21,786 nucleotides of DNA, taken from positions 1 through 21,786 of IMG/VR virus record IMGVR_UViG_3300010341_000003; one strand, 5' to 3'. Below are positions 2,870-16,934 of the stretch, piece after piece. The notes under the pieces were generated by a model. That model worked only from the letters and a program-made list of their open reading frames with translations, did no database searches and was not told the DNA's origin. The position numbers and the translations under genes are program-made. The stretch's first letter is position 1. The number at the start of each line of letters is the position of its first letter. This stretch comes from a virus.

Positions 2870-3637
2870 ATGCCTTCGAAGAAACGAAGTGCCAAGCTGC
2901 TGTCCCATTCTATCAACAACCGTTTGAAGTGTCCTACATGTGGCGAGCCAAAAGGCCAAAAGGCCAAATTGTGTTGGAAGTGTTACAACAAGTCGCGCCA
3001 CCCGACTGAATATTTTTATGACCGAACGGGTAGAAAGTACGATTGGTGTCCTACTTGTGGAACGATAAAAACTTTCGGCTGCCAGCACTGCCAAAAGTGT
3101 GCGTTCGTCCGAACTCATGTCAAGGTCTCGACCAGAGTCTTTTACCGTAAGGGAAGACCGTTGCGATGGATCGGGCTCACCCGAAACTACAAGGTTGCTG
3201 TTGACGCTCATCGCTATAAAGAGTTGTCCAGCTTCAACTGGTTTACGCTGCTCACCAACAGAAGGCTTGTATACGCCGTGCGCTGGGAACGGCGAAACGG
3301 GAAGAAAACTCTTATCTCTATGCACCAGCAAGTCGTGGGTGAGAGCAAGAATTTTGTAGATCACATTGATCACGATACCCTGAACAACATGAGATACAAC
3401 CTTCGCCGCGCTAGTCCAACGCAAAGTATCTGGAACAGGAGACGTTCGAAGCGCAATACTTCCGGGTATATTGGCGTATCGTGGTGTGCAGCAAGACACT
3501 ACTGGACCTCGTCTATAGTGGTGAATGGCAAATCGAGATGGCTCGGAACATACCATGACAAAATAAAGGCGGCAAAGGCTTTCGATGCTGCTGCCAAAAA
3601 GTATCGTGGTGAATTCGCGCATCTCAATTTCCCTTAG
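2870..3637 (+). CDS. HNH homing endonuclease with AP2 domain, opposite strand
   Basis: The 255-residue protein has two N-terminal Cys clusters (C21/C24/C35/C38 and C60/C63 with C71/C74/C77) that look like zinc-binding modules. An HNH nuclease core follows at about 150-180 (MHQQVVG, then DHIDHDTLNNMRYNLR). An AP2-like DNA-binding domain occupies about 198-254 (SGYIGVSW, then WLGTYHDKIKAAKAFDAAA). This is the standard layout of phage HNH/AP2 homing endonucleases, which cut DNA at unoccupied sites and spread. GGAG five bases before the ATG sets the start. It is the only plus-strand gene in the window, is visibly more AT-rich than its neighbours, and its TAG shares two bases with the stop of the convergent gene ending at 3634. 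The gene looks intact, and an extended -10 promoter lies upstream. Confidence 0.9.
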   Translation: MPSKKRSAKLLSHSINNRLKCPTCGEPKGQKAKLCWKCYNKSRHPTEYFYDRTGRKYDWCPTCGTIKTFGCQHCQKCAFVRTHVKVSTRVFYRKGRPLRWIGLTRNYKVAVDAHRYKELSSFNWFTLLTNRRLVYAVRWERRNGKKTLISMHQQVVGESKNFVDHIDHDTLNNMRYNLRRASPTQSIWNRRRSKRNTSGYIGVSWCAARHYWTSSIVVNGKSRWLGTYHDKIKAAKAFDAAAKKYRGEFAHLNFP

Positions 3638-5994: not shown

Positions 5995-6984
5995 TTACTG
6001 TGCCGCTTGCAGGATGAATCCCAGCCGGGGCGCGGTCACGACAATGTTGCCGCCGAACAGACTCTGTCCCGCCATATCGACCGAGTTCGGCAACTCTTTG
6101 AAGCCCGTGAAGCCAAAGGCGAATTTCGGGTCCTCGGACACATAGGCATCGATGAAATCCGTGTTCATGCCGAAGATCGTTCCCGATGGGCAGTACTGAT
6201 CGACAACGACCGACATGCCGTTGAACTTGAAACTGGTGAATCCGGCGCTCTGAAGTTCAGGATCGGTCGCGGTCGTGCGCTGCATCGGCAGCATCTTCGC
6301 CCAGAAACTGTTGTAGATCGACTGGGTGGTGGCGATGAAGTTCGGCTGGTCGGGACCAAAGGTCGCCTGGCCATAGGCGACTTGAAGCTGTTGCAAACTG
6401 AACGGCCAGTTCACCGGCGATCCGGCGGTACCGTTGTTGAACCAGTAGCCGTTGATTCCGGTTGACGCCCCGACTCCGACTGCGGACCGGGTGATGCCGC
6501 CGTACGACGGATAGTTGCTGCCGTCGTCGTATCCGGCCAGGATGCCGTCCAGCGCGATGAGCGGAGTCACGGTCCCTTGCCCGTCCGCGAAGAACTGAGT
6601 GATCAGGGTTTGCGCGAGCGCCTGCTCGGCATTCACTACTTTTGGCTCCAGATAATTCATGATCGCAGCGTAACCGCGGTTGAGGACAAAGTCGGTGCCG
6701 CGAACGGTGACGTTGGCGTAGGAAAATTTCACGTTGAACGTCATGGCCGTCTGGGTCTGGATGTAGGAGATGTCGAACACTCCGCCCGGAGGGAACGGAC
6801 CGGCTTTCAGCGGCGCGTACGAAAACGGCACCTGGATTTGCGTGCCGCCAGGGAAGGGCTTGGCCATCGAGCCGCCTTTCCAGACCTTGACGAAGGTGGG
6901 GCTGACACGAAAATAATTGTCGATAAAGTCTTGCGAAATGTACTGCGTGGTTACGGCAGTAATGTCATTGATCGTTAATGCCAT
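5995..6984 (-). CDS. Major capsid protein
   Basis: A 329-residue protein with the look of an HK97-fold major capsid protein from uncultured tailed phages: an N-terminal helix (YISQDFIDNYF), a beta-rich middle, and a late segment MSVVVDQYCPSGTIFGMNTD that resembles the conserved P-domain strand region (V.D..cP.G..y.ln). The C-terminal strand is NIVVTAPRLGFILQA. There is no obvious N-terminal delta-domain or cleavage site, fitting a separate scaffold protein encoded just upstream. A strong AAGGAG lies eight to nine bases before the ATG, suiting very high expression. It forms the icosahedral shell. The call rests on overall pattern and gene order (portal, scaffold, capsid), not on a search. Confidence 0.85.
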   Translation of the reverse strand: MALTINDITAVTTQYISQDFIDNYFRVSPTFVKVWKGGSMAKPFPGGTQIQVPFSYAPLKAGPFPPGGVFDISYIQTQTAMTFNVKFSYANVTVRGTDFVLNRGYAAIMNYLEPKVVNAEQALAQTLITQFFADGQGTVTPLIALDGILAGYDDGSNYPSYGGITRSAVGVGASTGINGYWFNNGTAGSPVNWPFSLQQLQVAYGQATFGPDQPNFIATTQSIYNSFWAKMLPMQRTTATDPELQSAGFTSFKFNGMSVVVDQYCPSGTIFGMNTDFIDAYVSEDPKFAFGFTGFKELPNSVDMAGQSLFGGNIVVTAPRLGFILQAAQ

Positions 6985-7034: not shown

Positions 7035-7065
7035 GTTACTGAACGTTACTGCACTGTTACTGAAC
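7035..7065. repeat. Three 10-bp repeats (GTTACTGAAC type) over the scaffold-gene stop
   Basis: GTTACTGAAC, GTTACTGCAC and GTTACTGAAC follow each other with one extra base before the third. The array covers the TAA of the scaffold-like gene (7057-7059) and lies in the 72-base gap before the capsid gene. Confidence 0.85.
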
Positions 7066-7860
7066 TGTGGCTCCGTCCCGGCCCTGATCCCGCTTCGCCA
7101 ATTCCGCAATCGCCCGCTCCAGACTCGATCCTTCCTGAGTCTTCTGCGCGGCCCGCTGCTTGGCCAGAACCTGCATGGCTGGCGATAACGCGACCGATGT
7201 CGTCTGACCGGGAACCGTGGCCGCAGACAGTTTCTGTTTGACCTGCTCATCAACTTTCTTGTTCACGATCGCGTCCTGCATCTTGGCCGACACGTCCGGC
7301 ATGGCCAGATACGCCTTCTCGACATCCGGATAGGTGGTCCCGAGTTTCTTCTGATCGTCGATGAACTTGCCTACTTTTTCAAGATCGAGGTCCTCGCCGA
7401 ATGTGGCCCTGTGCAGGTTCTCGATCTTCATGGTCAGGTGCGCGTCCTGAATTGCCTGCGTACGGAGCTGGCGCCCGAGTTCAGGTAGCTTGTCGAGAGT
7501 CACGACGTTCTTGAAATTCGTCTCCATGGTCGATTTCAGGCCGTTGAGCGCGTCAAGAATAGCCTTGCTGTCGGATGCCGGAGCAGGTGCCGCAACCACT
7601 GGAGCAGGTGCCGCTGATGCCGTGCTAGGAACTGCCGGAGTATGAACTGCTGCCACAACGGGAGCCACAACCGGAACGGGCTCGATCACAGATACTGGCT
7701 CTCCAGTCTCGACGCCTTTATAAATCCCGAACAAGTCCGTCATGAACTTGTCCTCGGCGATCAGTCTCGGATTCGCGGTCAGTGTCGCCTGAACCGCCGT
7801 CTTGATCTCCGGCTTGTCGTTCAACAGGTCGAGTAATAGTTCGTACGCCGACTTTGCCAT
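7057..7860 (-). CDS. Probable capsid scaffolding protein
   Basis: A 267-residue, mostly helical, highly charged protein. Residues about 1-55 are helical. Residues about 56-97 form a long Pro/Ala/Val linker (for example APVVAAVHTPAVPSTASAAP). From about 98 on it is helical and coiled-coil-like (LGRQLRTQAIQDAHLTMKIE; VDEQVKQKLSAATV), ending in a charged, basic region near residues 240-260. An extended helical body with a disordered linker and charged C terminus is typical of phage scaffolding proteins, which guide shell assembly and then leave the prohead. Its place directly before the capsid gene is the classical one. GAGGAG lies eleven bases before the ATG. I see no protease motif. The call is by composition and position. 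Confidence 0.7.
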   Translation of the reverse strand: MAKSAYELLLDLLNDKPEIKTAVQATLTANPRLIAEDKFMTDLFGIYKGVETGEPVSVIEPVPVVAPVVAAVHTPAVPSTASAAPAPVVAAPAPASDSKAILDALNGLKSTMETNFKNVVTLDKLPELGRQLRTQAIQDAHLTMKIENLHRATFGEDLDLEKVGKFIDDQKKLGTTYPDVEKAYLAMPDVSAKMQDAIVNKKVDEQVKQKLSAATVPGQTTSVALSPAMQVLAKQRAAQKTQEGSSLERAIAELAKRDQGRDGATVQ

Positions 7861-7890: not shown

Positions 7891-8274
7891 TTACGCCATT
7901 GCTCCGGGTGCGCCAACACCCGCTCCTGCTCCACCAGCCATTGGCGGCTCTGTTGCCATCCCGCCACTGCCTGCCTCGCCCGTTGCCGGTGCCGCTGCCG
8001 GTCCAGGTTTCGTGCTCACTCCCTTGATCTTGTCCAGATACTTCTTGGCCTGATCGACCATGGACTGAATCATGGCCTTGCCGTCGGGATCGGTCTCCTG
8101 CTTGTCGAGCTTCGCGAAGACTTCGAGCAGGGTTTCGATCTGCTTGACTTTCTCGCCCTGCTGACCGGCAGGCGTAGACGAACCCGGTTCTGGTTTCTTC
8201 CCGTCCATGCCAGCCGCTGCCGAGTAGAAACTGGGCGCGGGAGGCGATCCGGATTTGGGCTTGTCTGCGGGCAT
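7891..8274 (-). CDS. Small Pro/Gly/Ala-rich hypothetical protein
   Basis: 127 residues. The ends are disordered and low in complexity (Pro/Ser/Gly at the start, GGAGAGVGAPGAMA at the end). The middle (about 42-88, EKVKQIETLLEVFAKLDKQE onward) is helical and conserved-looking. This helix between flexible tails recalls small virion-assembly or head-interior proteins, but no family is recognised. The ATG at 8274 lacks a good ribosome site. It lies 30 bases upstream of the scaffold gene, as part of the head module. Confidence 0.6.
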   Translation of the reverse strand: MPADKPKSGSPPAPSFYSAAAGMDGKKPEPGSSTPAGQQGEKVKQIETLLEVFAKLDKQETDPDGKAMIQSMVDQAKKYLDKIKGVSTKPGPAAAPATGEAGSGGMATEPPMAGGAGAGVGAPGAMA

Positions 8275-8304
8275 GACTGATCACGATTCCGGCTGCGATC
8301 CCGG

Positions 8305-8523
8305 TTACGGCTTGATCTTGCCTTTCTCGTTCTGGAAGCCCTTCGGATACCCGGTCTTCGAATCGACACTGACCGGGGCCGGTGGCCATACCGAATCGTG
8401 AACCGTGTGACCGAACTTGTGATACTTGCCGCCAGCCACGGCTACGCTACCCGGCGCACCCCCAAACGATTCTTCACGGCTCTTTTTCATGCCGCCAGTT
8501 GCGACCTCTTTGTTTTTCGCCAC
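8305..8523 (-). CDS. Small hypothetical protein, GTG start
   Basis: 72 residues, basic, with many Gly/Lys and a central HKFGHTVHDSVWPPAPV. The start is GTG with TAGGAG six bases upstream, which fixes it. The upstream leader contains a 9-bp tandem duplication (8542-8559). It sits between the tiny basic peptide and the helical hypothetical in the head module. No family recognised. Confidence 0.6.
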   Translation of the reverse strand: MAKNKEVATGGMKKSREESFGGAPGSVAVAGGKYHKFGHTVHDSVWPPAPVSVDSKTGYPKGFQNEKGKIKP

Positions 8524-8541
8524 AGCGAACTCCTATTCAGG

Positions 8542-8559
8542 ATCACTACCATCACTACC
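8542..8559. repeat. Tandem duplication 2 x 9 bp (ATCACTACC)
   Basis: Two perfect adjacent copies in the leader of the gene starting at 8523, about ten bases upstream of its ribosome site. Confidence 0.9.
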
Positions 8560-8583
8560 GCTTTACTGTTTTGGACTCAATGA

Positions 8584-8612
8584 ACCGGGACTTGATGTGA
8601 TCGCATCCCGGT
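8584..8612 (-). other. Hairpin downstream of the tiny basic gene
   Basis: ACCGGGA and TCCCGGT pair over 7 bp with a 15-base loop, 37 bases after the stop of the 19-residue gene. There is no U-tract on either side, so it is more likely an mRNA-stability or processing element than a terminator. Confidence 0.5.
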
Positions 8613-8648
8613 CTGTGGAATTTCGTGCGGTGACTTGGAAAGCGTCTA

Positions 8649-8708
8649 TTACCGCTTTCCCTTGCGTCCGCCGTGACGTTTCTTGCCGCGTCCACGCTTG
8701 CGTGCCAT
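8649..8708 (-). CDS. 19-residue arginine/lysine-rich peptide
   Basis: A very short frame, MARKRGRGKKRHGGRKGKR, starts at an ATG with a near-perfect AAAGGAG eight bases upstream and ends in TAA. Eleven of 19 residues are Arg or Lys, one is His and four are Gly, so it should bind nucleic acid or an acidic surface. It lies in the 389-base interval between the portal gene and the 72-residue gene, with a hairpin on each side. The ribosome site is one of the strongest in the window, which argues that it is translated. A protamine-like or DNA-packaging accessory role is conceivable but is pure inference. The alternative is that only the leader matters and the peptide does not. Confidence 0.6.
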   Translation of the reverse strand: MARKRGRGKKRHGGRKGKR

Positions 8709-8778
8709 GAGCAGGTCTCCTTTCAGTCGAATGGTGTTTGATCGCTACTTACTCGGTTAACCCCAGCGCGGCAAATTG

Positions 8779-8809
8779 TCTGTCGTGCTGATGTCTTCCT
8801 GACGACAGA
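8779..8809 (-). other. Hairpin between portal and tiny basic gene
   Basis: TCTGTCGT and ACGACAGA form a perfect 8-bp stem with a 15-base loop, about 70 bases upstream of the tiny gene start. No U-tract follows. The 204-base gap that contains it holds no other convincing gene or promoter. Confidence 0.5.
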
Positions 8810-8912
8810 GAAACACACATTCGACATTAGTTCAAACGAGTGGCCCCATAAGGTGCCTTAGGAGTAACTACTGGAGATTTTTAGGAATTGACTTTTAGAC
8901 GAACGAGACCGA

Positions 8913-10808
8913 TCACTTTTTGCTCTTAGCCGCGCCCTTGCCCTGTGCCGCAGCCGCAGCGGCAGCAACGATGATCTTGATCCGGGCTTCGGCGAGCAAC
9001 TCTTTCTGGTTCTCGTCAAAGTTGAAGTTAGGCTTCAATATGCGGAACAGATTCCGGTCGGACAATTTTCCAAGTTTGCTGAGCGCGAGCGCGACCTGCT
9101 TCTCCTGCTCACGTTGCGATTCCAGTATCGTCCCGCGACTGCAAGTACCCGCGAATTTGCGCACGAACTGTTCCGGCGCGATCCCCGTGGGAATTCCGGA
9201 AGCGTAGATGGGAGTGAAATCCGAACTTGAGAATCCCGCAGTGCCGAGGATATTAACTCTGTGCGCGACGGAATAAAACTGAAGCATGTTCGCGATCACC
9301 ATCGACCCGCCTTCTTCGGCAAACGATGCCAGTGCGCGGCTCTTGACGCGGATCGGCAGCGAGCGGCTGTTGAGGATCGTATCGAGCGAATCCGATCCCG
9401 GCACCTGCTTTTTGCTCATCGCCTGCTGGATCGCGGACGAGCCGCTGTTCATGTCCAGTTCGCGGTCAACCCGATCCACGAACTGCTGGGCCGCGGCAAT
9501 CGGAAACTCGGCCTTTTTCATGTACTCGGGGGGCTTGGGCGCGTTATTGTTGTACTTGATCTTTCCGCCCGCGGCCCCGGCGTCGAGCGCGTCCCAGTCC
9601 GCGGCGGGCATCGCGCCCTTCGGACCGACCAGTGTCGGTTCAATGACCGCATCAAGGTAGTCCTGCATTCCGCCCAGCACGCGGTTGATGATCATGTTCA
9701 TCTGCATCCACGGGCGAACGCTGCTGTTTCCGGCCATTTTCCAGGGCACGCGCAACGGTCTGTATACAGGGAACGGTTTTTTCGCGTGCCAGTACGGATT
9801 CGGCTGGTCTTCGAGCACGCATCCGCCAGCGGTAACGATCAGGCGGCCGCGGGGATATAACGGTTCGCCGGGCTCAACGCGATACGCCCAATTGACGCGA
9901 GGCTGACCGCTCGGGTCTGCGGGGCCGACGGTCACTGTCCGGCTGGTGTCGTTCTTAGCCGCGTCGTTCAGCCAGAATTCGCGCTTGAGCGCCAATGGGT
10001 AGGGGTTGTCGTCCGCGGACGTGTTCCGCTTGATGCCGAGCGAGCGGCGTAACGTTTCAGGCAGGTTCGCCCACTGCGCCTGCCCGAACCCTGATGGGCG
10101 GTTGAATTGGCCCTGTAACGCTCCGCCGTTAAAGTCGGCATCGCACTCGACACGGTTCGCGGTCGGGCCAAAATCTCGAATAAGCGATGCTTTGGACACG
10201 ACAGGGAAATAGATGATGCACTCGGCGTCCTGGGGATTGGTCCCGGCTCCGATCGTCGCCCACTGCCACGGCGCGATCGGCACCATGTCGCAGTCGCCCA
10301 TGCCGCCATTCAGTTTCGAGTTCCACTGGATCTTGGCAGGCCCGGTCGTAAGGATACCGTACAGGATCACGTCGTACTGTTTGGTTTCGTAATCGTGTTT
10401 CTGGACCCAATGCGTGATCAGCGAGTTCAGCATTTTTTCGTAATCGCTGAATTCGTTCAGGTGGTCCCACATCTTGACTTGAAAATCAATCGCCAGATCG
10501 GTCAGGAGTCCGACGCCGTCCCAGAACAGGCGCTCGGATTTCGGCAGAATCGGACGGTTGCGGCCGCGGCGTGCGCCCGGTCCCCACATGCGCCCGTCGA
10601 GCGCGTCCAGTGCCCGGAATGTGGATTTAGTCTGGTCGGTGAAGGATTTGTCCTGGGTCGCGATGTCGAACAGCTTGTCGGTCCATTGGCAAATTTCGGA
10701 TTCCAGCTGATGAGCTTTCTCTTCGGACAGGCCAGCGGGGGACGGAGGCAGTTCACCGACGGCAGAGGACTGACTGTAGTCGGGAAGAGATAGGGACGAG
10801 GATGCCAT
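8913..10808 (-). CDS. Portal protein
   Basis: A 631-residue protein with portal architecture: a helical, acidic N terminus (EEKAHQLESEICQWTDKLFD), a long alpha/beta body, aromatic stretches such as IAPWQWATIGAGTNPQDAEC, and a Gln/Asn-rich segment MQMNMIINRVLGGMQDYLDA typical of portal stems. It ends in an eight-Ala run followed by a Lys-rich tail, like the crown region of other portals. The dodecameric ring is the DNA entry channel and docks the terminase. Gene order (TerL upstream, scaffold and capsid downstream) supports the call. The ATG directly follows an in-frame TGA, so the N terminus cannot be longer, yet no ribosome site is visible. A strong hairpin lies 29 bases upstream. Low, controlled expression would fit a 12-copy protein. 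Confidence 0.85.
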   Translation of the reverse strand: MASSSLSLPDYSQSSAVGELPPSPAGLSEEKAHQLESEICQWTDKLFDIATQDKSFTDQTKSTFRALDALDGRMWGPGARRGRNRPILPKSERLFWDGVGLLTDLAIDFQVKMWDHLNEFSDYEKMLNSLITHWVQKHDYETKQYDVILYGILTTGPAKIQWNSKLNGGMGDCDMVPIAPWQWATIGAGTNPQDAECIIYFPVVSKASLIRDFGPTANRVECDADFNGGALQGQFNRPSGFGQAQWANLPETLRRSLGIKRNTSADDNPYPLALKREFWLNDAAKNDTSRTVTVGPADPSGQPRVNWAYRVEPGEPLYPRGRLIVTAGGCVLEDQPNPYWHAKKPFPVYRPLRVPWKMAGNSSVRPWMQMNMIINRVLGGMQDYLDAVIEPTLVGPKGAMPAADWDALDAGAAGGKIKYNNNAPKPPEYMKKAEFPIAAAQQFVDRVDRELDMNSGSSAIQQAMSKKQVPGSDSLDTILNSRSLPIRVKSRALASFAEEGGSMVIANMLQFYSVAHRVNILGTAGFSSSDFTPIYASGIPTGIAPEQFVRKFAGTCSRGTILESQREQEKQVALALSKLGKLSDRNLFRILKPNFNFDENQKELLAEARIKIIVAAAAAAAQGKGAAKSKK

Positions 10809-13137: not shown

Positions 13138-13980
13138 TTATCTTCCATTCCATTCAAAAACTCGTCCCCGACCGAAATCTTTGTTCGTCAATATTCGCTT
13201 TGTGTCCCATCCTTTGGCTAGACGAGCGGTGATCGTTCCCGGTGGTATACCCAGCAACTCGGACCACTCCACGATGGTCAGTCTCTTCCCGCCCATCTTG
13301 AGAAACGTATTGCTCCTCTTGTTTCTGGCCTGCTGCTTTCGAGTTGCCCAATAGCAATTTGACGGCTTGTATCCTCTGTCGTTGTTTCTACGCTCGATCA
13401 TCAGTCCGCTTTGATAGCCATGCGACAAGGCCCATCGAATAAAATTACCGCTGTTCTGCCACTGTCTACAGACAGCGATGCCCCTGCCTCCGTAGTTGTG
13501 ATAATTGACGACGTTCGGATTACTGCATCGGCTTATCATTGCCCGCCAGATTCCATACAATCTAGTTCTTGACATACCATGAGTGCGTCTAGCCTCGGAA
13601 GCGCGAGCGCTTTGGTAACAGCCACAACTTTGTGTGTTCCCATAACGCAACGAAGCGGCCCTGACAGTGACGACCTCCCCGCAGTCGCATTGGCATTCCC
13701 ATCTAGCATACGTATGGCCGTTTACCTTCAGGTTACGTGCCCGACCGATGACCAACAGCCTACCGAATCTCTTACCTTGAATGTCTATAATTCTGGTTTT
13801 ATAGTCACATCCACAGCTTCTAGTACGGCCTCTCCTCAGGTTCCCGGTAGTCACGATTCGAGTTTTGCCGCAGTCGCATAGGCAAAGCCAAGCTCTGTGA
13901 TCCCCCCGCTTGCCCTTTTCCCTTATAACTTTCAACAACCCAAACCGCTTGCCGACCAGATCAATCTTCCTGCGACTCAT
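13138..13980 (-). CDS. HNH homing endonuclease, probably truncated by an ochre codon
   Basis: 280 residues. Two similar zinc modules lie at about 7-60 and 67-122 (each GKRFG.L.VI, then C.C.CG, then SCGC). A nuclease core follows at about 134-220, with THGMSRTRLYGIWRAMISRC, NYGGRGIAVC and IERRNNDRGYKPSNCYWATR, matching the HNH-like family common in phages. A helix-turn-helix repeat at 233-265 would add DNA contacts. The frame ends VFEWNGR-TAA, and a second repeat continues in frame, so the stop falls inside what is normally one motif (NGK.xTLxEWA). The ATG overlaps the TerL end by 20 bases, with GAGG nine bases upstream. The nuclease core is complete, so cutting may persist with altered DNA recognition. 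Confidence 0.85.
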   Translation of the reverse strand: MSRRKIDLVGKRFGLLKVIREKGKRGDHRAWLCLCDCGKTRIVTTGNLRRGRTRSCGCDYKTRIIDIQGKRFGRLLVIGRARNLKVNGHTYARWECQCDCGEVVTVRAASLRYGNTQSCGCYQSARASEARRTHGMSRTRLYGIWRAMISRCSNPNVVNYHNYGGRGIAVCRQWQNSGNFIRWALSHGYQSGLMIERRNNDRGYKPSNCYWATRKQQARNKRSNTFLKMGGKRLTIVEWSELLGIPPGTITARLAKGWDTKRILTNKDFGRGRVFEWNGR

Positions 13981-16246
13981 AGAGGCTTACCTCATCCGGT
14001 ATTTCACTGGGTATGCCATCCATTTTACCGAATTTTGCCTCTAAGTGCAAGCGAGCACGCATTGCTGAAACTGTATCCGGGTTTTCCATTTGCTCGCGAG
14101 CGCCGAATCCGTGAAGTCGGGCCAGTTCCGACTCGGCTCCGGTTCCATCCCATGCGGGGCTATAGCATGTATTGGCGCGGCTGACCTGAACGGGCACCAC
14201 TTTCCAGCCGTGCTTGACCAGGTCGATGCCGTGCTTCTTGCTCAACTGTGCGATGAGTTGATTCCCGGCCTCGGCTGTCGAGATGGGATCGGGCCTGCCG
14301 TCGATCTGGGATCGGTCGATGGCGCGGCCAAGGTGATCGTAGATGGAGAATATCTGCGGGGTTTTGGGGAGAAGGTAGGCGTGCTTGGCCCCTGACCCGA
14401 CTGAATCTCCAACACTCTCAGCATACTCCTGCCGTTTGCCGGTCTGGTATAGGGCCGCGAGTGCGATGATATTGGCCATGACCATATCGTCGGTCGAGTC
14501 CATGCCCTCGGCTTTGGTTTCGCCCTCGAACCGGCCAAAGTCCCGCATCTCCTCGATCAGATGACGATTGCGGATGACGACCGTGTGATCGAGCAGGTGT
14601 TGACTCATGCGGTTGATGGCATCGTCACGGGTCTGATGATTGGTCAACCAGTGCATGATCTGCGTCTGGGTATGCAGGCGATCCATTTTGCGCCAGCGAT
14701 AGATTGCCGGATAATCCAAGGTGACGCGCAACTCGTTGCCCGTAGTGATGCCATCGCGGGCATACTCAACAGCCACCTCGCAGGTGTGGTACCAGTAACC
14801 GAGAGCGGCGATGATGCGGGCGAAGTAAGCTGCGTTCGTCCAACCGTGCCATTCAGCCACCTGCACATTGGGCTCGTTACCATACCCGATCCTGTAGACA
14901 GAGGCATCACTGTAGTCGGAAGCCGTACCCGAGGCGACATCCGCACCCAAATAATATTCAACTTGATCGTTATCATCGGGTTCTTCCCAGACCCACAGAT
15001 GGTTGAACTGCTCGGGACGATCAAGAGTTTCCTCGGGCTTCGGCGCGTGCAAGTCAAGGATGACGTGATGTTCCGGGCTGTCACTGTATTCGATCTCGCC
15101 AATCATTATCGGTGGACGGCAGTTCTTTTGCTCCTGCTCATTGAGGCATTTACGGGGAAAGGCACAAAAACCGGAACTGATAAAGGCTTCACCCGCCGTT
15201 ATGGGGTACGATTCCAGAAATGTCTCGTCGCTGCGGGTGGCTGCAATGGTTTCGATGATCTGCTCCCGGCGCCACTTGAAAAAACCGAGCGGGATCGTAT
15301 ACGAATCCTTAGCGCGCACGTTCCGGCGCAGGGCTTTCTCATCCTCAGTGAGGACAAAGTTGTCGGACTTGTATACGGGCAGGAAGTATTTCTTCACCTT
15401 GTATACAGGGATGAACAGTGCCCGCCAGATTGATTTGCCCGCTTCCGCTGCCCGCCACAGGTTATAGAACAGGCCGGATCGACCGTAAGCGGTGGATTCG
15501 ATCACACCCAACATATCCGGAGCGTTGAGGGACGGTTTGATGTCAGCAGTCCAGACTTGAGGATCGGGCCAACGGCTGGCCTCCGAAGCCAAGATGTTCT
15601 TGATTGTGCGTCCGATGGCTACGCCTGTGGATTTCTGTGCATTCGACACCAGCAGGGTTGAACCCAGACCGGGATCGACGGATCGCTGGTATTCATCGGT
15701 GCGCTGGAAGATAACCTGCCGACCTTGCTGCTTGGACAGGTACTCGGGACGGAGCCAGAATGGGAGGTTGTGATAGGCGTCGATGATGCGCTGGTAAATC
15801 TCGCCCGAGACCGTATCGTCCTGCGCCATCACCAAGGAGAACGTGTTCGGCACAAAGATCGTGGAGTGGAAGATGCGGGCCGCATTCCAGGTTGTAGACC
15901 CGGCCTGCCGGGGTTTGAGCACGATCAAGCGGCAACATCCCTTGTTGCGCCACTCCTCTTCGATCACTTCGTGAAGTATTTCCTGATGCGACCAGAACTG
16001 ATAGAGAGTGCGGAGCTTGCCGCGCTCATCACGGATTACGTAGTAGTTCTCCATGAAGTAGCGGGTGTCGGCCATGCAGCGCTCGATCTCGCGGTCGATA
16101 AAGGCGTTCTCTTCGGAAGAGAGGAGTTCAAGGGCGCGTGGAAGGGCTTCCACGTCGGTCTTGGATTTGGATTGGGCGAGAATGAACTTCTCGTCCAAGA
16201 CTTCGAGGTAATCGTTAAGGGTGTCGTCCTTACGCGGTACTCTCAT
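13961..16246 (-). CDS. terL: Terminase large subunit
   Basis: 761 residues. It is the packaging motor, an ATPase that drives DNA into the prohead and a nuclease that cuts it. Visible motifs are Walker A at about 109-119 (VLKPRQAGSTT), the acidic ATPase motif near 219-225 (ILASEASRW), a coupling-type motif GVIESTAYG at about 247, and RNase H-type nuclease residues: GADVASG at 435-440 and DDMVMANIIAL at 586-596. The N-terminal 100 residues are helical. A C-terminal extension of about 160 residues beyond the nuclease is longer than in many terminases; it may contact the portal. The ATG at 16246 lies inside the end of the upstream endonuclease (17 bases overlap); a GGTGGAG is about 12 bases upstream. 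The 3' end overlaps the next endonuclease. The ORF looks intact. Confidence 0.93.
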   Translation of the reverse strand: MRVPRKDDTLNDYLEVLDEKFILAQSKSKTDVEALPRALELLSSEENAFIDREIERCMADTRYFMENYYVIRDERGKLRTLYQFWSHQEILHEVIEEEWRNKGCCRLIVLKPRQAGSTTWNAARIFHSTIFVPNTFSLVMAQDDTVSGEIYQRIIDAYHNLPFWLRPEYLSKQQGRQVIFQRTDEYQRSVDPGLGSTLLVSNAQKSTGVAIGRTIKNILASEASRWPDPQVWTADIKPSLNAPDMLGVIESTAYGRSGLFYNLWRAAEAGKSIWRALFIPVYKVKKYFLPVYKSDNFVLTEDEKALRRNVRAKDSYTIPLGFFKWRREQIIETIAATRSDETFLESYPITAGEAFISSGFCAFPRKCLNEQEQKNCRPPIMIGEIEYSDSPEHHVILDLHAPKPEETLDRPEQFNHLWVWEEPDDNDQVEYYLGADVASGTASDYSDASVYRIGYGNEPNVQVAEWHGWTNAAYFARIIAALGYWYHTCEVAVEYARDGITTGNELRVTLDYPAIYRWRKMDRLHTQTQIMHWLTNHQTRDDAINRMSQHLLDHTVVIRNRHLIEEMRDFGRFEGETKAEGMDSTDDMVMANIIALAALYQTGKRQEYAESVGDSVGSGAKHAYLLPKTPQIFSIYDHLGRAIDRSQIDGRPDPISTAEAGNQLIAQLSKKHGIDLVKHGWKVVPVQVSRANTCYSPAWDGTGAESELARLHGFGAREQMENPDTVSAMRARLHLEAKFGKMDGIPSEIPDEVSLYESQED

Positions 16247-16934
16247 TGCGAGTCAGTTCTCCACCGACTGTCTTGTAACGCCTGTTGTGTTGATCCACGG
16301 GAAACGATACGGCTTCTTCCGGGTTCCAGCCACGCCCGTATCTTTCTCTCGCCACCCTGTACGAAACCACTCCGTACTCCTCAACCCAATCAATTAGGCT
16401 CTTGGTCTCCCCGCAAATAGCAACCATGACAGTGTCGTGACGATTTCTCTGCTGAATCCTTTTCGTAGCCCAGTAACAATTTTCCGGACTGTACCCCAGA
16501 TCGTTGTCTGTTCTTTCTATGGTGAGATTAGGTTGGTACCCGGTGGACTCAGCCCATGCGAAAAAATCATCCGAGACCAGCCAGTCATCGCAGACGGTGA
16601 TGCCGCGCCCGCCGTATCTGGCGTAATCCTTGTTTTTCGGATTCAGGCATCGGGCCTTCATGTTGCGCCATACAAGGTACAGGGGCGAGTTCGATAGTCC
16701 GTGCCGGAGAAATTTCTTTCCGTTAAGGCGGGAAGTTTCGTGAATCAGGCAACCGCAACTTTGTGTCTGCCCTTGACGCAGCCTGATACCGGGAAGAACA
16801 AGCCGTTTCGGTTTACCAACGCCACCGTGATTGCACTCGCACAGCCACGATACGTTCCCTCTGCTATCCCTGCCCGCTTCCCTGACGACCAGCAGCCTGC
16901 CGTAACGCTTGCCCTTCATGTCCACTTTCAACAT
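16230..16934 (-). CDS. HNH homing endonuclease upstream of TerL
   Basis: 234 residues, same family as the endonuclease at 13138. It has one N-terminal zinc module (GKRYGRLLVV, then C32/C34, then C60/C62), a nuclease core at about 78-164 (HGLSNSPLYLVWRNMKARC, YGGRGITVC, IERTDNDLGYSPENCYWATK), and a C-terminal helix-turn-helix repeat at about 178-212 (KSLIDWVEEYGVVSYRVARE). The ATG at 16934 follows a sigma70-like promoter so closely that the mRNA would be almost leaderless; ATG 16919 (residue 6) is an alternative. Its 3' end overlaps the TerL start, so it sits exactly at the TerS-TerL boundary. HNH genes near terminase genes are known in phages; some small ones assist packaging, whereas this one looks like a homing type. 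Confidence 0.87.
   Translation of the reverse strand: MLKVDMKGKRYGRLLVVREAGRDSRGNVSWLCECNHGGVGKPKRLVLPGIRLRQGQTQSCGCLIHETSRLNGKKFLRHGLSNSPLYLVWRNMKARCLNPKNKDYARYGGRGITVCDDWLVSDDFFAWAESTGYQPNLTIERTDNDLGYSPENCYWATKRIQQRNRHDTVMVAICGETKSLIDWVEEYGVVSYRVARERYGRGWNPEEAVSFPVDQHNRRYKTVGGELTRNESTA

Follow-up and report, generated by a model that had tools for sequence, protein, structure and literature searches.

The window, meaning the whole stretch of 21,786 nucleotides that was analysed, belongs to a tailed dsDNA phage, judged by its predicted portal, terminase and capsid genes. Its minus strand carries, just after the portal gene, an ORF of only 19 codons that starts with an ATG at 8708 and has its stop at 8649. 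Of the 19 residues encoded, 11 are Lys or Arg. Read along this strand, the order is terminase, further genes, portal, mini-gene, 72-aa gene, 127-aa gene, 267-aa gene and major capsid gene, with a gap of 204 nt between the portal stop and the mini-gene. The features used below are as follows.

16246-13961, minus strand: terminase gene
8913..10808, minus strand: portal gene, 631 aa, upstream neighbour of the mini-gene (phrog_1216, 1.4e-6; phrog_156, 2e-4)
8776..8812, minus strand: upstream inverted repeat, arms of 11 nt at 8776-8786 and 8802-8812, 91% complementary, 15 nt between them
8717..8723, minus strand: ribosome-binding site AAAGGAG, 8 nt upstream of the mini-gene ATG
8649..8708, minus strand: polybasic mini-gene, 19 codons plus TAA, MARKRGRGKKRHGGRKGKR, net charge +11, an ORF kept in relatives
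8614..8648, minus strand: spacer from the mini-gene stop to the hairpin (alignment A3)
8583..8613, minus strand: conserved 3' RNA hairpin, 9-bp stem, 13-nt loop, no U-tract, beginning 35 nt past the stop
8305..8523, minus strand: 72-aa basic protein, GTG start, downstream neighbour of the mini-gene
7891..8274, minus strand: 127-aa protein of the head cluster, no family match
7057..7860, minus strand: 267-aa protein in scaffold position, no family match, putative role assigned from its place
5995..6984, minus strand: major capsid protein, 329 aa (phrog_9953 major head protein, 3.7e-25)
13138-13980 (minus), 16230-16934 (minus) and 2870-3637 (plus strand): three HNH endonuclease genes (PHROG E 1e-81 to 1e-31)

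The earlier note had described the 19-aa ORF with its ribosome site 8 bases before the ATG and its 11 Arg/Lys residues, and all of this is present, the strand being minus. The ORF has its own SD and ATG and ends right after the peptide, so there is no larger precursor. Its TAA is followed by a TAG in frame, and stop-codon read-through was rejected because of these tandem stops. In Pfam, the portal protein matches SU10_portal at 1.1e-5, which is under the curated cut-off of that family and therefore a weak match. Portal proteins of the family carry a His/Lys-rich C-terminal tail, such as QHPHGKK or GKGAAKSKK (L078, L094 and L101; positions 8913-8950 in the window), so that a second basic element adjoins the mini-gene.

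Relatives were gathered from IMG/VR through the portal, the capsid and the DNA pattern of the mini-ORF, and their identity to the window ranges from 78 to 40% for the portal and from 98 to 33% for the capsid. All relatives with enough flanking DNA, about 70 contigs, have an Arg/Lys-rich ORF of 12-29 codons at the same site. This ORF is placed between the portal and capsid genes, or simply upstream of the capsid where the contig starts later. In the main clades its position is fixed between the portal gene and a gene of about 55-80 aa, and this 72-aa-type gene is a conserved partner of the mini-gene cassette. A strong SD precedes the mini-ORF in nearly all relatives, with the SD of L028 lying further upstream. 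At portal loci L007, L027, L052 and L053 and at capsid locus L093 the contig ends too early for a judgement. Two other loci, L067 and L071, were missed by a stricter ORF filter, and there the ORF had been seen in an earlier comparison. Several relatives have additional sequence between the portal and the mini-gene, including an HNH gene in L016 and in phage Tunturi_1.

We then consider the ORF against chance. A fixed rule (ATG, strong SD, 12-30 aa, net charge of at least 0.44 per residue, both strands) was applied to 38 loci covering 926 kb, with one contig counted twice. It gave 34 matches, one per locus, all of them at the mini-gene site and none away from it; the remaining four loci fell just under the charge or SD threshold. 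An earlier scan of 20 lineages (546 kb) had given 18 matches, again all at this site and 0 elsewhere.

Comparison of close relatives is in agreement with coding. The window and L004 encode an identical peptide with 6 nucleotide differences, including one in the stop codon, all at third positions. Given that about 29% of random changes are synonymous, six of six has a probability of about 6e-4. Within the peptide itself this pair has 5 synonymous codon changes to 0 nonsynonymous. L090 and L105, likewise identical in peptide, differ by 12 synonymous codon changes and no nonsynonymous one. Between L128 (MARHKAARKAARKAARKAARKAAR) and L126 (MARHKKGRKATRKAARKAAR) the length changes in frame, with near-identical 3' flanks.

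An ORF of just 60 nt, whose 19 aa lie under the usual gene-calling limits, might be a chance ORF without function. The same site in about 70 contigs with 0 matches elsewhere in 926 kb, the purely synonymous divergence of identical-peptide pairs and the in-frame length changes all speak against this, and we consider chance practically excluded, as it is already refuted by the comparisons among relatives. Because the ORF occurs at the same site in all testable relatives and the fixed rule finds no match elsewhere, the mini-ORF is almost certainly, on this comparative evidence, a real protein-coding gene. The earlier note had read it as a real short gene tied to the portal and head cluster, and this holds, with the same frame after the portal in the testable relatives; relatives with a broken frame, which it named as the contrary observation, were not found among the about 70 contigs.

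Searches of family libraries gave no match in Pfam for the window peptide or for that of one relative, nor in PHROG for the peptides of three relatives, with HMM searches having little power at such length. A tblastn search with the peptide against isolate phages also gave no match, which is uninformative for so short a query.

As for the composition of the peptide, Lys accounts for 29%, Arg for 27%, Gly for 20%, Ala for 6% and His for 6% of residues, and hydrophobics are almost absent. Together Lys and Arg make up 56% of residues; the typical length is 19-23, with a full range of 12-29. The C-termini are KR, RK, SK, EK, RG, VK and similar, with no hydrophobic or aromatic end. The 39 distinct peptides from relatives with at least 54% capsid identity (16-29 aa) have net charges of 10-13, with a mean of 11.05 and sd of 0.65, the lineages being related and not independent samples. 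For 19 of these 39 the sd of the charge is 0.58, where a binomial matched in composition and lengths gives 2.58, a comparison in which relatedness is not corrected.

In a distant clade (capsid identity 33-36%) the first mini-ORF has 12-24 aa and a net charge of +6 to +11. A second basic ORF, such as MARKKGRKKASRKNTRVYRR, follows past the hairpin in this clade, without a clear SD, and L140 has three in a row. The extra mini-ORFs (L124:3164, L126:3281, L131:2165, L132:1939 and L140:3126 and 3248) come directly after the hairpin, mostly without an obvious ribosome-binding site, and end in YRR in all except L140.

These comparisons support the view that charge rather than sequence has been conserved in the peptide, which would fit nucleic-acid binding. 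The earlier note had listed DNA, RNA and the acidic scaffold or terminase tail as possible binding targets. Charge conservation is consistent with the nucleic acids in that list, and the acidic scaffold is not especially favoured, since the scaffold-position proteins have a net charge of only about -2 to -7 over 240-276 aa.

Binding to a protein was nevertheless weighed. The peptide might act in assembly by binding an acidic protein (the scaffold, the inner face of the capsid or the terminase tail), for example by seeding the procapsid near the portal. The place of the gene between the portal and the scaffold/capsid genes agrees with such a role, as does the charge of possible partners, capsid proteins being net -5 to -10 and the terminase of the window net -24 with an acidic C-terminus. 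Against this, the scaffold-position protein is mildly acidic (-3 over 267 aa), two or three different versions of the peptide exist in the distant clade, and no conserved motif for a specific interface is seen, as only charge, Gly and the length range are kept. We regard an assembly peptide of this kind as improbable.

Short cationic peptides often bind RNA or membranes, and the mini-peptide could in principle be a cationic effector that acts late in infection on the host, with its ribosomes, RNA or membranes as target. The near absence of hydrophobics is unlike membrane-active peptides, and the gene is always within the head cluster, not among early or lysis genes. This makes a host-directed effector highly improbable.

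We next describe the hairpins on the two sides of the mini-gene, which the earlier note had reported. Both are present in the window. In the window alone, tested against shuffled versions of the gap with dinucleotide content kept, p is 0.047 for the downstream stem and 0.072 for the upstream one. The downstream arms are 8605-8613 and 8583-8591, with an alternative of 7 bp and the 15-nt loop given in the earlier note. When the best stem per gap (from the mini-gene stop to the next gene) was compared with dinucleotide shuffles across lineages, the downstream stem had p<0.05 in 18/20 and then in 23/24 lineages, a total of 41/44 (Fisher 1e-20 and 4e-20). Longer-looped stems are visible in the folds of two of the three exceptions (L039 and L041). 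The upstream stem had p<0.05 in 0/20 lineages, and the upstream hairpin is probably not part of the system. Thus only the downstream half of the reported pair is conserved.

The downstream stems have 8-18 bp and are unrelated in sequence across lineages, with loops of 4 to 35 nt, and the distance from stop to stem is usually 15-50 nt. Among the window, L001/L002, L004 and L019, both partners have changed in 6 of 11 base pairs, and 91% of cells stay paired. Sliding the stem partner in alignment A3 destroys this covariation signal. Loops of the GNRA or UNCG type, a feature of one clade, occur in 20 of the 24 hairpins with 4-nt loops, the lineages being related and not independent samples, and the two types interchange between relatives. 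As these loops stabilise RNA and interchange, the element probably works as RNA, with its stability kept. In 15 loci, hardly any other tetraloop hairpin of this kind occurs in the roughly 5 kb to either side of the site. Rfam gave no match for the RNA element.

Within the spacer that leads from the stop to the hairpin, the block CGCTTTcc..AAGTCACCGCACGAAATTCC has hardly changed in the closest clade, made up of the window, L004 and L019, while the stem arms beside it have been replaced. This block is a possible extra RNA or protein site.

Some known roles for such a hairpin were tried and rejected. As an intrinsic terminator it lacks a U-tract, and the tails after the stem in other lineages likewise have no U-run. 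A programmed frameshift at the A/G-rich codons would have the stem 15-50 nt past the stop, too far from the slip site. An amino-acid-sensing attenuator does not agree with the free exchange of Lys and Arg. The earlier note had also proposed that the interval forms a separate mRNA module. Mini-gene and 3' hairpin do form a compact unit, from which the upstream hairpin is to be left out. A separate mRNA for the mini-gene is plausible, with no intrinsic terminator-like or sigma-70-like consensus near it in the window (8300-9100).

The constant company of the hairpin brings in two further readings. In the first, the peptide would be an RNA-binding regulator with a minimal arginine-rich motif, modelled on lambda N/boxB or BIV Tat/TAR, possibly acting on the downstream hairpin and regulating the message that encodes it, or else read-through towards the capsid genes. 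Practically all lineages have both the mini-gene and the hairpin, hairpins of this kind hardly occur away from the site, and the length and composition of the peptide resemble known arginine-rich RNA-binding peptides. The likeness to lambda N/boxB includes a basic peptide of about 20 residues, a nearby RNA hairpin and, in some clades, GNRA tetraloops. However, stem sequence, stem length and loop vary, and GNRA and UNCG swap among lineages with similar peptides, which leaves no recognition element in common. Unlike lambda N/boxB, the hairpin has no fixed recognition loop, the peptide, at 12-29 aa in all, lacks a further domain that could contact RNA polymerase or a Nus factor such as NusA, and the gene is not in an early regulatory region. 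We therefore find an RNA-binding regulator unlikely, if worth keeping in mind.

In the second, the ORF would act in cis as an upstream ORF, with translation of the polybasic chain before the hairpin tuning the following genes and the released peptide having no role. Polybasic nascent chains slow ribosomes, and we do see a short ORF with a strong SD and a conserved hairpin just past its stop, ahead of the capsid cluster. On the other hand, free exchange of Lys and Arg with charge held at about +11 over different lengths fits a mature polycation better, the stop-to-stem distance varies from about 15 to 50 nt, and the hairpin and the SD of the next gene are usually separate. A purely cis-acting ORF is in our view very doubtful.

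The reading we prefer, to which we give about an even chance, is that the peptide is a free-standing polycation that binds nucleic acid, is made with the head genes and acts in head assembly or packaging. Its site in the head cluster and the two or three mini-ORFs in a row in the distant clade speak for it. The peptide would be disordered, without a hydrophobic core or anchor, and would bind nucleic acid electrostatically with no sequence preference. Nonspecific binding of this kind explains why Lys and Arg exchange freely and why no hydrophobic anchor is present, and also the repeat-like forms and the Gly spacing. Judged by gene order, the peptide would act in DNA packaging or inside the filled head, with phage DNA at either stage as its most likely target. 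The peptide may then be a gene-encoded counter-ion, like adenovirus mu and microvirus J in virions. Bulk charge balance cannot be the full account, because even several hundred copies, each at +11, would offset no more than a few per cent of the charge of a 50-60 kb genome. For most tailed phages, no comparable peptide is known to take part in DNA packaging.

As for the hairpin, it may protect or process the 3' side of the short message, and the effect would be that a cistron of 12-29 codons is expressed well above the neighbouring genes of the operon. Alternatively, a hairpin so specifically paired with the mini-gene could have a regulatory role. The full picture, a family of tailed dsDNA phages that uses a protamine-like mini-peptide, kept by selection at a charge of about +11 and packaged or linked to packaging, with its dose set by an RNA hairpin, is put forward tentatively and at somewhat less than even chance. 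We know of no precedent in tailed phages for a packaged protamine-like mini-peptide.

In terms of known systems, adenovirus mu is a 19-residue basic peptide present at 100-300 copies per virion that helps condense the genome (PMC7998265). The mini-peptide shares its length of about 19 residues, its strongly basic character and its encoding among structural genes. Mu is cut from a 79-aa precursor by the viral protease, whereas the mini-peptide, known here from sequence, is encoded directly and without a precursor. We know of no relationship between the two and expect none, as adenoviruses belong to another virus realm.

The microvirus protein J/VP8 binds the packaged ssDNA, guides it and stays with it, and has a hydrophobic coat-binding end (PMC11281519). 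An analogue of the mini-gene, it is also a small Arg/Lys-rich phage gene in a structural set. The C-terminal hydrophobic anchor of J/VP8 is buried in the coat protein, while the mini-peptides have no such end, and J/VP8 works with ssDNA in T=1 capsids, in contrast to the tailed dsDNA phage considered here.

For the hairpin, intra-operon stem-loops set transcript stoichiometry in the cip-cel operon (PMC4423207). Both cases have a stable hairpin 3' of one cistron in a structural operon; the phage hairpin differs in being paired with a single gene of 12-29 codons, and its evidence is that of sequence comparison. Finally, general surveys have predicted small phage genes by the thousand (review PMC11323111), and the mini-gene family may be present, unnamed, in their lists.

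Among isolate phages, the portal search found no relative, and no isolate of the mini-gene family is in the phage collection; capsid and terminase searches found only remote relatives. Portal and terminase searches of 84,980 species genomes for hosts confirmed no relative, and a PDB sequence search with capsid and portal gave nothing significant. Of the isolates, the Tunturiibacter phages Tunturi_1/2 (PMC11924767) come nearest in capsid and portal similarity. With the Tunturi_1 portal as query, IMG/VR gave no relatives.

The capsid proteins of Tunturi_1/2 and of Stenotrophomonas phage BUCT555 are distantly related to those of the family. BUCT555 has a small basic gene after the portal (phrog_16759, 52 aa), and Tunturi_1/2 have a Lys-rich ORF of 22 aa between the portal position and the scaffold/capsid genes. 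Their sequences differ from the mini-gene, being larger or having several Glu, and they are no more than putative homologues; in Tunturi the gap of 17 nt also leaves no room for an equivalent hairpin. The Tunturi ORF, MAKESKKEMKKEELKKKKSGKK, is an unannotated Lys/Glu ORF with AGGAGG (L030:5144-5212 in Tunturi_1, L062:868-936 in Tunturi_2). It is identical in both phages, while the upstream DNA differs, with an HNH gene in one and other sequence in its counterpart. Judged by eye, a promoter-like TTGCAG-17-TATATG lies just upstream.

Taken for the phages themselves, the mini-gene is present throughout a large uncultivated family. It shows that a head cluster can have universal members at a fixed position that are just 12-20 codons long, and that these can stay below gene-calling limits and unmatched in the family libraries tried (PHROG and Pfam, with Rfam for the RNA element). 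If the reading is true, the polycation mini-gene, down to 12 residues, would be among the smallest conserved head-cluster genes of phages. A peptide with conserved charge and a tolerant sequence is a clean test case for selection on disordered polycations, and the constant pairing of mini-gene and stable RNA hairpin offers a way to test how a phage operon may control stoichiometry. With this family, the use or packaging of protamine-like peptides by tailed phages becomes directly testable.
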